This document shows, piece after piece, positions 38,127 through 40,543 of a stretch of 54,763 nt of DNA. The DNA comes from an uncultured Microcaldota archaeon (GTDB lineage Archaea > Micrarchaeota > Micrarchaeia > Norongarragalinales > CAINOH01): contig CAINOH010000003.1 of assembly GCA_903851445.1 (NCBI GenBank), positions 1 through 54,763 on the forward strand, read 5' to 3'. A program made the translations under genes and the position numbers. Below the pieces are notes generated by a model. That model did no database searches. It was not told the origin of the DNA and saw only the letters and a program-made list of their open reading frames with translations. Position 1 is the stretch's first letter, and each line of letters begins with the position of its first letter.

Positions 38127-38137
38127 AAATTATAAAC
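38127..38137 (+). promoter_or_regulatory. promoter (TATA box) of the aromatic leader transcript
   Basis: AAATTATAAAC is centred about 30 nt before the ATG of the leader peptide (38163). Transcription would start near 38157-38162, so the leader peptide would be translated from the extreme 5' end while DAHP synthase has an untranslated region of roughly 255 nt. Confidence 0.6.
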
Positions 38138-38162
38138 CGCCGTTCCCATTCTAATTGTCCTT

Positions 38163-38243
38163 ATGGCCAGCGAACCTTGCTCTGCCGCGGTTACCGCTCA
38201 GAACAGCTGGCGCTTTGGATATTTCTATTTCTACTTTGCCTAA
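38163..38243 (+). CDS. aromatic-rich leader peptide upstream of DAHP synthase
   Basis: A 26-codon ORF ending TAA at 38241-38243. From codon 16 it reads WRFGYFYFYFA: eight of the last eleven residues are Trp, Phe or Tyr (one Trp, four Phe, three Tyr), the three end products of the pathway encoded just downstream. The peptide starts MASEPCSAAV. A TATA box sits about 30 nt upstream, so the ATG would be within a few nt of the mRNA end. Alternative RNA hairpins and a U-tract follow before the DAHP synthase Shine-Dalgarno. This is the layout of bacterial Phe/Trp leader peptides. I see no longer frame or homologous domain that would explain it otherwise. Confidence 0.82.
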   Translation: MASEPCSAAVTAQNSWRFGYFYFYFA

Positions 38244-38246
38244 GGC

Positions 38247-38380
38247 GGAAAGTTCACCCGGACTTTCCTGCTTTTCGCGGTTTGGGTCGGCAACTCAAAA
38301 CGCGTCCGGGATTCTTCCAAGACTAACCTAGGCTTTATCGCTTTCGTCCTGTCCTGGAGCCAGTTTCCTTCGGGTTTTTT
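38247..38380 (+). promoter_or_regulatory. putative attenuator between leader peptide and DAHP synthase
   Basis: Hairpin A (38247-38268) has 7-bp arms GGAAAGT/ACTTTCC and starts 3 nt after the leader stop codon. Hairpin B (38276-38304) pairs CGCGGTTTGGGT with ACTCAAAACGCG, with one mismatch and one G-U. An alternative stem pairs CCCGGAC (38257-38263), which lies in the loop and 3' arm of A, with GTCCGGG (38304-38310), and excludes A. A run of six T (38375-38380) follows. A ribosome stalled on the aromatic codons would cover or approach the 5' arm of A and shift the choice. Pairings were found by eye only. Confidence 0.5.
38375..38380 (+). terminator. U-tract, candidate conditional terminator before DAHP synthase
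   Basis: TTTTTT after CGGG, 35 nt before the DAHP synthase ATG. Archaeal RNA polymerase can terminate at U-rich tracts with little or no hairpin, so this is where a leader transcript could end. No strong hairpin directly abuts it. Confidence 0.35.
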
Positions 38381-38415: not shown

Positions 38416-39432
38416 ATGTTGGTTACAATGAAAAACGGCGCGCGTACCGAACAGGTGATGCGTGTCAGGGATTGCGCCGAACGCTCCGGCCTGCGCACAA
38501 AGGAAATCCATTCTGCAGCAGGCTCGCTTGTAATCGGTCTTGTAGGCGACGACTCACTGTGCCCCATGGGGCTTGAGGCCCTTGAGGGTGTGGAGTCGGT
38601 TGAGAAGGAAAAGCACCCGTTCAAGCTCGCGTCCAGGCAGTACCAGAACCACGACACAATAGTGCGCGTCGGAGACGAAGTCTCAATAGGCGGCCAAAAA
38701 ATAGTTGTGATTGCCGGGCCTTGCGGGATTGAAAGCGAGGACCAGCTTCTGGACGCGGCAATTGCGGCAAAGGACGCCGGCGCGAAAATCCTGCGAGCCG
38801 GGCTGTTCAAGCCGCGCACCTCGCCGTACGGCTTCCAGGGAATCGGGCTTGCGGGCCTTGGCATCCTTGAGAAGGTGCGCGACGAGACAGGAATGCTCTT
38901 GGAGACCGAGGTGCTGCACACCGACCAGGTAAAGCTGGTCGAGCCTTTCGTTGACATGATTCGCATCGGGATGCGCAACATGCAGAACTTCGACCTTTTG
39001 CGTGCTGCGGGAAGGAGTGAAAAGCCGGTCATACTCAAGCGCGGGTGCTCGGCGACCCTGACGGAGTTCCTGCTTGCTGCGGAGTACATACTCAACGAGG
39101 GCAACCCCAATGTCGTGCTTTGCGAGCGCGGGATACGCACGTTCATGACCGAGACGCGCAACACGCTTGACCTGAACAGCGTGCCGCTCCTAAAGTCGAT
39201 GACGCACCTTCCAGTGATAGTGGACCCATCGCACGGGACTGGCGTGTACTCGCTTGTCACTCCGATGTCGCGTGCAGCAATCGCGGCTGGCGCTGATGGC
39301 CTGCTTGTCGAGATGCACCCGCACTCGGAGACCGCGCTTTCGGACAAGGCGCAGCAGCTGACCCCTGCTGATTTCCGCACGCTGATGGCACAAGTGTCGG
39401 CAGTTGCAGGCGCAGTTGGACGCTCGATGTGA
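38416..39432 (+). CDS. aroF: 3-deoxy-7-phosphoheptulonate synthase (DAHP synthase, AroA-I-beta type)
   Basis: A 338-aa enzyme. The N-terminal ferredoxin-like regulatory domain spans about 1-70. The KDO8P/DAHP barrel follows, with VVIAGPCGIESEDQL, RAGLFKPRTSPYGFQG and VDPSHGTGVYSL. It condenses PEP and erythrose 4-phosphate in the first shikimate step. The N-terminal domain is the site of aromatic feedback inhibition in this subclass. Unlike many neighbours it has a long 5' leader and a strong ribosome-binding site (AGAGGTAAGGA) just before the ATG, consistent with the leader-peptide control upstream. aroB follows directly. Confidence 0.95.
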   Translation: MLVTMKNGARTEQVMRVRDCAERSGLRTKEIHSAAGSLVIGLVGDDSLCPMGLEALEGVESVEKEKHPFKLASRQYQNHDTIVRVGDEVSIGGQKIVVIAGPCGIESEDQLLDAAIAAKDAGAKILRAGLFKPRTSPYGFQGIGLAGLGILEKVRDETGMLLETEVLHTDQVKLVEPFVDMIRIGMRNMQNFDLLRAAGRSEKPVILKRGCSATLTEFLLAAEYILNEGNPNVVLCERGIRTFMTETRNTLDLNSVPLLKSMTHLPVIVDPSHGTGVYSLVTPMSRAAIAAGADGLLVEMHPHSETALSDKAQQLTPADFRTLMAQVSAVAGAVGRSM

Positions 39433-39440
39433 AAAGGAGG
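39433..39440 (+). promoter_or_regulatory. ribosome-binding site that sets the aroB start
   Basis: AAAGGAGG directly follows the DAHP synthase stop and lies 11 nt before TTG at 39452. It supports this TTG as the aroB start over the longer frame that runs back into the upstream gene. Confidence 0.6.
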
Positions 39441-39451
39441 ATTGTGTTGCG

Positions 39452-40543
39452 TTGCCCAAGCTTTTCGTGCAGACAAAAACCGAGCCGCACCTGTCGACAA
39501 TATGCGTCGGCGCTTCGGTGGAGGATGCGGCAGCGGTTTGCAAGGAGAACGGCTACTCCAAGGTCGGTGTGGTCTTTTCCAAAAATACCGAAGGGATTGC
39601 AGGACGGGCAATCGCCGCCTTGCGAAAGGCAAACGTCCTGTCTGAAAAAATCTGCATTGACGATTGCGAGAAAAGCAAGGGCGTGGAAAACGCAACCAGC
39701 CTCCTTTTGAAGATGAAACTGGCCGGGTTAGACCGCCATTCGGCCGTAGTTGCAGTTGGCGGCGGGGTGCTCGGTGACGTGTCGGCATATGCGGCGTCAA
39801 CGTATATGCGCGGAATCCCGATAGTGCAGGTGCCGACAACGCTGCTTGCGATGGTGGACAGCTCGGTTGGCGGAAAGACCGGCGTCAACTTGGACGGGAA
39901 GAACATGGTCGGCACTTTTCACCCGGCTGACGCGGTCATAATAGATTTTTCCACGCTCGAGTCGCTTCCTGCAGACGAGTATCGCCAGGGGATTGCTGAA
40001 ATCGCCAAGGCAGCCTGCATAGGCGACGAAAAATTGTTCTCGCTTTTGGAGTCGGACGCGCAAAAAATCGTCAAGCGCGACCCGCAAACACTTTGCGCCG
40101 CAGTTGAGGCAGCGCTCAAGGTCAAGGCCAAGATAGTCGAGAGGGACCCGAAGGAATCGGTTTTGAACCCGTCGGAAAGCTCGCGGATGCTCCTCAATTT
40201 CGGCCACTCGTTTGCACACGCAATAGAGTCCGAGTCCGGCTACTCGGTCCGCCATGGCGATGCGGTCGCGATGGGCATGGTTGCTGCAGCGAACGCATCA
40301 AGCAAGGTTTCAGGGCTTGCAAAAAGCGATGTCGAAAGGGTAAAGAAACTGCTTTTGTCATTGGGGCTTCCTACTGCGGTTTCGCAAAACCCCGAAAAAC
40401 TCCTCCTACGCATGAAGTCGGACAAGAAGAATCGCGCAGGGGAAATTACCCTGGTCCTGCTCAAGTCAATCGGCCGGCCGCAGATTATGCGCAATGTTCC
40501 CGACTCAATCGTGCTTGATGCGCTAAAGGCCGCGTCCCCCTGA
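39452..40543 (+). CDS. aroB: 3-dehydroquinate synthase
   Basis: About 363 aa. It converts DAHP to 3-dehydroquinate using NAD and a divalent metal. Motifs are AVGGGVLGDVSAYAAS (NAD site), VPTTLLAMVDSSVGGKTGVN, and metal ligands in GIAEIAKAA, LNFGHSFAHAIE and VRHGDAVAMGM. This is the classical bacterial-type AroB and not the alternative archaeal DHQ synthase II route. The start is TTG at 39452 behind AAAGGAGG. It forms an operon with DAHP synthase, so both would fall under the aromatic leader. Confidence 0.94.
   Translation: MPKLFVQTKTEPHLSTICVGASVEDAAAVCKENGYSKVGVVFSKNTEGIAGRAIAALRKANVLSEKICIDDCEKSKGVENATSLLLKMKLAGLDRHSAVVAVGGGVLGDVSAYAASTYMRGIPIVQVPTTLLAMVDSSVGGKTGVNLDGKNMVGTFHPADAVIIDFSTLESLPADEYRQGIAEIAKAACIGDEKLFSLLESDAQKIVKRDPQTLCAAVEAALKVKAKIVERDPKESVLNPSESSRMLLNFGHSFAHAIESESGYSVRHGDAVAMGMVAAANASSKVSGLAKSDVERVKKLLLSLGLPTAVSQNPEKLLLRMKSDKKNRAGEITLVLLKSIGRPQIMRNVPDSIVLDALKAASP

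Follow-up and report, generated by a model that had tools for sequence, protein, structure and literature searches.

A putative ribosome-mediated leader-peptide attenuator upstream of aromatic amino acid biosynthesis operons in archaea

Could an archaeon sense its supply of aromatic amino acids by translating a short leader peptide ahead of the genes that make them? Attenuation by leader peptides is familiar from bacteria as a textbook mechanism, in which operons such as pheA (leader pheL), pheST and trp (leader trpL) in Escherichia coli are preceded by leader ORFs carrying codons of the regulated amino acid. The question is raised here by the window, the whole 54,763-nt stretch of archaeal DNA that was analyzed, which is contig C3 of a 1.09-Mb Micrarchaeota genome that is 81% complete. 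A preliminary description of this DNA, made from the sequence alone, had pointed to a 26-codon ORF ending WRFGYFYFYFA*, with eight aromatic residues among its last 11 codons, lying between a TATA box and DAHP synthase (DAHPS)-aroB; the sequence is exactly as claimed, and direct reading confirmed the placement, which leaves 172 nt before the DAHP synthase ATG (Table 1). From the distance between the TATA box and the leader ATG, the transcript would begin at the ATG or a few nucleotides earlier. The earlier proposal that the ATG lies at the mRNA 5' end thus agrees with TATA spacing in the window but does not extend to most relatives, which have a 5' UTR of 5 to 30 nt and are not strictly leaderless; nearly every homologous leader is preceded by a TATA-like element, for the most part between -31 and -57.

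Table 1. Features of the putative leader, its promoter, its predicted RNA segments and the downstream genes in the window.
Feature	Position	Strand	Basis and remarks
TATA box TTATAAA of leader promoter	38130..38136	+	Read directly; 27-33 nt before leader ATG
Segment 1, 5' arms of helix 1:2 (38156-38160 and 38166-38171, over start codon)	38156..38171	+	RNA fold, pairing with 38217-38221 and 38206-38211, respectively; covariation in relatives
Predicted transcription start, near-leaderless	38157..38163	+	~25-27 nt after TATA center; inferred from archaeal TATA-to-start spacing
Leader ORF MASEPCSAAVTAQNSWRFGYFYFYFA*	38163..38243	+	Direct reading; homologous leaders in relatives
Segment 2, codon part, 3' arms of helix 1:2 (38206-38211 and 38217-38221), W-R-F-G-Y codons	38206..38221	+	RNA fold; swap test
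Aromatic codon run W R F G Y F Y F Y F, presumed sensor	38208..38237	+	Direct reading
Segment 2, tail, 5' arm of helix 2:3, from leader stop codon	38242..38255	+	14 pairs with 38260-38274; swap test; covariation
Segment 3, 3' arm of helix 2:3, overlapping U4 tract 38272-38275	38260..38274	+	RNA fold; covariation
U6 tract, candidate archaeal termination signal	38375..38380	+	36 nt before DAHPS
DAHP synthase, first gene of regulated operon	38416..39432	+	
aroB (3-dehydroquinate synthase), second gene	39404..40543	+	Start codon uncertain; DAHPS-aroB order also in L211 and L212

Such an ORF rarely arises by chance. Only 3 of 740 dinucleotide-shuffled 400-nt upstream regions contained a qualifying ORF (12 to 45 amino acids, with at least 6 of the 12 C-terminal residues aromatic), whereas in the real sequences of related genomes an aromatic ORF precedes most of the DAHP synthases that stand first in a transcription unit. 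Across 37 loci, Phe, Tyr and Trp make up 49% of the last 14 leader residues, and the observation is far beyond chance.

When the regions upstream of DAHP synthase in relatives were checked, Phe/Tyr-rich short ORFs were found at the equivalent place, a feature shared by many archaea of the DPANN type. The nearest relative (L003/L005), whose DAHPS is 67 to 68% identical to that of the window, carries MSKQDFSQSNALFSSFSFDYFYWQE* at the same position, so that absence of the aromatic run from close relatives, which the preliminary description had named as grounds for rejecting its reading, was not found; G295, from the same order, has the same contig and the same leader as the window. The leader is present in ~32 of the 48 Micrarchaeota genomes examined that have a convincing DAHPS, a count that leaves out three further genomes with weaker or partial DAHPS matches as well as the doubtful locus L020, which the 37-locus statistics, from swap tests and shuffles to codon counts and accessibility models, include. 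Examples within the phylum, besides that of the nearest relative, are MTEVKANQQNWSFGFSFGYFG, MKVAKDSSEFFFAVFFYSFSY, MSNKAKVNNKVFYFFSFSFWY and MERAKPKTINYFYYSRFFWFSFFYYYFRFFWF, and five genomes of a second archaeal phylum also carry leaders (e.g., MAKAFSKTWTGNNFYYLSFGYAFW and MDSAEIQAIHSVNAFWPAGATIFFSYYFYG). Homologous leaders comprise 18 to 40 codons with aromatic-rich C termini, often containing FSF[GS]Y, and the gap between leader and DAHPS is usually 57 to 212 nt, reaching 266 nt in L115 and 453 nt in L017. On the minus strand, the L017 gap appears to have been expanded by short inverted repeats (CAACAAGAT..., GGACAATCG...). In the long gap of the window, CCTAGGC at 38327-38333 is shared with L003/L005, with CCTGGGC in L006, and is perhaps a further structural element.

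Leaders accompany DAHP synthase genes that come first in a transcription unit, and the clearest cases without a leader are those in which DAHPS lies inside an operon, for example behind transketolase. No leader was seen upstream of the operon-internal DAHPS of L084, L086 to L088 or L094. The sole strong DAHPS match in a third phylum, in G353, is likewise operon internal and without a leader, and none was apparent on reading the upstream sequence of L004, the only bacterial relative found. In a DAHPS tree, leaders are found with several DAHPS lineages, and the second-phylum leader operons L120 and L122 nest among those of Micrarchaeota, which suggests, with several nodes weakly supported, that the gene moved together with its leader. 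At L052/L092 (G276 C14:40947-42715), tandem DAHP synthase genes of a short and a long form share one aromatic leader.

The leader is not tied to DAHP synthase. A DNA pattern for FFSF[GS]Y gave 14 matches in 301 genomes of the phylum, 9 of which were DAHPS leaders. In G091, which has no DAHPS match, the pattern found a leader, MRNAKVCISGNSFFFSFSYY*, behind a TATA box and directly 5' of an aromatic operon ordered aspartokinase, aspartate-semialdehyde dehydrogenase, ADTH synthase, DHQ synthase II, aroD, aroE/aroK and aroA (aspartokinase is backed by Pfam; the other names come from reading of the sequences). In G176, the leader MEIAKASLRSCRSASYFSSFSYGSY precedes ADTH synthase-DHQ synthase II, and lysC and asd look to have been lost upstream of ADTH synthase: an apparent C-terminal remnant of aspartate-semialdehyde dehydrogenase between leader and ADTH synthase (L205:7860-8040) suggests that lysC-asd was deleted while the leader was kept. 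In archaea, ADTH synthase and DHQ synthase II form the DKFP entry to shikimate, and these entry genes are unrelated to DAHPS. Since leaders stand before both DAHPS and the nonhomologous ADTH operons, their common denominator is the aromatic product and not the adjacent gene. The suggestion that the leader was simply acquired with the gene is contradicted by its presence with several DAHPS lineages and with the ADTH pathway.

Operon content narrows the likely signal. Judged from reading of the sequences, the L211 operon runs DAHPS-aroB-aroD-aroE/aroK-aroA-aroC-chorismate mutase/PDT-tyrA-aminotransferase, and that of L212 is the same without aroD. In most leader genomes, pheA (PDT) is on the same contig ~5 to 6 kb from DAHPS. 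Many genomes have trpE on that contig too, but outside this run of genes. In the incomplete genome of the window, neither PDT nor trpE was found, and only aroB adjoins DAHPS. That the operons run to pheA and tyrA agrees with the makeup of the leaders, in which Phe and Tyr abound and Trp appears only now and then. Of the original proposal that Phe, Tyr and Trp are all sensed, what stands is mainly Phe and Tyr with some Trp, and the genes in the two operons read are those of the shikimate pathway, pheA and tyrA, not trp. Scanning of trpE loci for Trp leaders gave none that was consistent and no aromatic leader of the kind described here. Many of the trpE loci L054 to L076 have, ~50 to 100 nt upstream, an ATG-TAT-ATT-TTT-GTA-CA-like stretch (MYIFVHKSFKY) running into a TATA box, which may be a promoter/operator of the trp operon, where no such leader is present.

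In the RNA of the leader region, three recurring segments were recognized. Segment 1 comprises the mRNA 5' end and the leader start (GUGGUUU...AUGGCUAAAG in a large subgroup), segment 2 joins the aromatic codons (CUUUAGCUAU) to the tail at the leader stop (AAAACCAC), and segment 3 is a GGUGGUUUUUCC-like stretch downstream of the leader. RNAalifold on 12 leaders recovered helices 1:2 and 2:3 unprompted, with 94% of cells paired and double-sided changes in 10 of 20 pairs; none of 500 shuffles reached any of these measures, and sliding the partner reduced pairing to 35 to 53%. In a swap test of matched against exchanged segments at 37 loci, z was 5.85 for 1:2 and 6.68 for 2:3, with no signal in the negative controls, which paired the 5' UTR or the leader start with segment 3 (-1.1 and 1.4). 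Synonymous-codon shuffles supported helix 1:2 (Stouffer z = -6.7), and dinucleotide shuffles supported 2:3 (Stouffer z = -9.7). Synonymous-shuffle support for 1:2 was lacking in the second phylum, in f18 and at L053 and L018; in the window itself, 1:2 is modest (synonymous-shuffle z = -0.66) and 2:3 strong (z = -3.2). Codon choice points the same way: AGC accounts for 71 of 116 Ser codons in leaders compared to 170 of 549 in DAHPS, an excess that fits a need for GCUAAAG:CUUUAGC pairing.

Helices 1:2 and 2:3, which covary strongly, are part of a set of mutually exclusive helices overlapping the leader, whose further member is less well supported. The helix that the mRNA 5' end would form with the segment 2 tail (GUGGUUU:AAACCAC), and which would exclude 2:3, is 94% paired with two double-changed pairs, among them a replacement of U-A by C-G seen in three sequences; as many double-changed pairs turned up in 75 of 500 shuffles, and the swap test gave z = 2.1, so this pairing is moderately supported by comparison of the sequences. 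A cmscan of eight loci against 4,227 Rfam families returned no relevant match and no riboswitch or T-box family. At f8/f9 loci, a conserved TAG[AT]GT-A-like motif lies between segment 3 and the DAHPS start (A2 columns ~190-205), and the 5' UTR has similar words ahead of GTGGTTT.

Downstream of the leader, the candidate termination signals are U-tracts. Runs of four or more T number 68 in the leader-to-gene gaps against 24 ± 4 expected from mononucleotide shuffles, with at least one such run in the gap of 36 of the 37 loci, and the U-tracts mostly sit in the 3' arm or the loop of 2:3. Modeled exposure of the last U-tract rises from 0.29 with segment 2 free to 0.53 with segment 2 blocked; the tract is better hidden with segment 2 free at 16 loci, the reverse holds at 3, and the others are without clear change. 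At some loci a U-tract lies in the loop of 2:3 and is exposed in both states. Archaeal termination is driven by aCPSF1, which binds at least two U4 tracts (PMC8716108, PMC11616081), and hairpins are not needed for it (PMC8716108). We found aCPSF1 in all 10 genomes checked, that of the window included, 9 of them above the cutoff and the tenth split.

With the leader, its position, the operon content and, through covariation, helices 1:2 and 2:3 demonstrated in the sequences, we propose the following mechanism. A ribosome would translate the short leader once the mRNA emerges. When charged tRNA-Phe and tRNA-Tyr (and tRNA-Trp) are plentiful, it would reach the stop codon, cover segment 2 and then leave, upon which segment 2 would go back to its 1:2 partners, the leader start and the 5' end of the mRNA; the U-tract of segment 3 would thereby be left single stranded, and transcription would terminate before DAHP synthase via the U-tract and aCPSF1 (FttA). 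When the aromatic tRNAs are uncharged, the ribosome would instead stall on the Phe/Tyr codons, breaking 1:2 and freeing the segment 2 tail, which would pair with segment 3 (2:3), bury the U-tract and so allow RNA polymerase to read through. Because the operon is biosynthetic, 2:3 must be the "on" state, and the lower U-tract access with 2:3, together with hairpin-free termination by aCPSF1, leads us to propose 2:3 as an antiterminator that buries the U-tract. Leader translation, stalling, this sign for 2:3 and the role of aCPSF1 as terminator are what we infer, and the direction of regulation comes from the same logic.

These elements may be held with differing confidence. It is very probable from the comparative data that the element is an attenuator that senses the ribosome, and we put the probability of the whole account, a ribosome-mediated leader-peptide attenuator of an archaeal aromatic operon, at roughly 0.65. 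The modeled burying of the U-tract has about even odds of being correct. The same balance applies to the broadest form of the claim, in which a native archaeal attenuator, serving two nonhomologous shikimate routes in at least two phyla, would sense charged tRNA and use a hairpin as the "on" state by hiding an aCPSF1/FttA U-tract. The central idea of the preliminary description, a leader-peptide attenuator in an archaeon, is backed by conservation in two phyla, independent occurrence with a nonhomologous aromatic route, covarying alternative helices overlapping the leader and selection on synonymous codons.

An alternative hypothesis keeps the same sensing leader and places the output at translation, with alternative folds hiding or exposing the ribosome-binding site of DAHP synthase. 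A leader-to-gene gap of often just 57 to 120 nt would suit this arrangement, but modeled accessibility of the gene start (-14 to +3) is unchanged, at 0.494 with segment 2 free compared to 0.480 with segment 2 blocked (of 35 loci, 9 go up and 6 down), and segment 3 lacks matched pairing to the downstream region (3:4 swap z = -1.3), making control of translation unlikely. Rather less probable is a bacterial-type attenuator in which 2:3 is itself the terminator, its GC stem and U-rich 3' arm releasing RNA polymerase. While the A-rich 5' arm and U-rich 3' arm of 2:3 do resemble bacterial terminators, the U-runs lie mostly within the paired arm or the loop and not behind the stem, the independence of archaeal termination from hairpins removes the need for one, and the sign would be wrong for a biosynthetic operon, because stalling frees segment 2 and would terminate transcription under starvation. 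A search for a GC-rich 3:4 hairpin with a U run behind it, as in bacterial terminators, was also negative. Bacterial terminator-hairpin logic was thus not seen, and the archaeal U-tract logic of our proposal is more likely.

The peptide itself might also act, as a TnaC-like nascent-chain arrest peptide that senses an aromatic amino acid in free form, or some specific peptide, and not tRNA charging. The FSF[GS]Y motif recurs in one large subgroup, as an arrest sequence might, yet from one family to another aromatic richness alone persists (YFYFYFA, FYYYFRFFWF, FSYYFYG, YFFWFC); conservation of FSF[GS]Y is in part what the helix formed with the GCUAAAG start region would call for, given the AGC preference described above, and selection acts on synonymous codons, leaving arrest a slightly poorer candidate than the bacterial-type terminator. 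A small functional hydrophobic microprotein cotranscribed with the operon is very improbable, since the conserved ORF that would favor it varies in its N-terminal half and its length (18 to 40 amino acids), has an aromatic run that drifts and is embedded in covarying RNA structure.

Read as a ribosome-mediated attenuator, the element works like the trp and phe attenuators; it is not filed as a member of the bacterial type because the defining terminator hairpin was looked for and not found. It shares with pheL, pheST and trpL of E. coli the codons for the regulated amino acid, a protector-like 1:2 and an antiterminator-like 2:3, and differs in that the archaeal 2:3 seems to have a U-rich segment as its direct target, with no 3:4 GC hairpin found. 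Like T-boxes and amino acid riboswitches, it would sense amino acid supply upstream of biosynthetic genes; unlike them, it would do so via an ORF, and no Rfam family matched at the eight loci scanned. Its proposed terminator module is that of aCPSF1/FttA U-tract termination, the factor being encoded in the genome of the window, and we found no report in the open-access literature of such termination in a leader-peptide attenuator. A close bacterial counterpart is the aroR leader of Corynebacterium glutamicum, which contains Phe-Tyr-Phe and precedes the aroF (DAHP synthase) operon, where stalling at Phe/Tyr codons raises transcription, according to the summary of Neshat et al. 2014 within PMC11802643. 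The two are alike in having a leader peptide with Phe/Tyr codons before a DAHP synthase operon and differ in that aroR belongs to a bacterial host with bacterial termination machinery, while the archaeal leaders have a longer run of 6 to 10 aromatics, TATA promoters and U-tracts, with no 3:4 terminator seen.

The preliminary description had known of no characterized archaeal example, and within the open-access literature, to which this result is limited, we found no archaeal leader-peptide attenuator of amino acid synthesis. A tool paper remarks broadly that archaea make use of uORFs, its passages on the subject giving no example (PMC10219788), and Ribo-seq in Methanosarcina lists small ORFs in 5' UTRs, without attenuation (PMC11456600). 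A conserved, covarying leader in two archaeal phyla would imply tight coupling of transcription and translation in uncultured archaea and would offer a natural substrate for studying how RNA folding and ribosome position control archaeal U-tract/aCPSF1 termination, and its signature could be used for finding further such leaders. A different architecture is seen at L020 (G077 C42; contamination, 6%), where an aromatic ORF is followed by a GC hairpin, CCUCAGGC..GCCUGGGG-AUUUUUU, a classic terminator. The contig in this contaminated bin may come from a bacterium, the reason the locus stands outside the count of ~32, and so may offer a bacterial attenuator for comparison.
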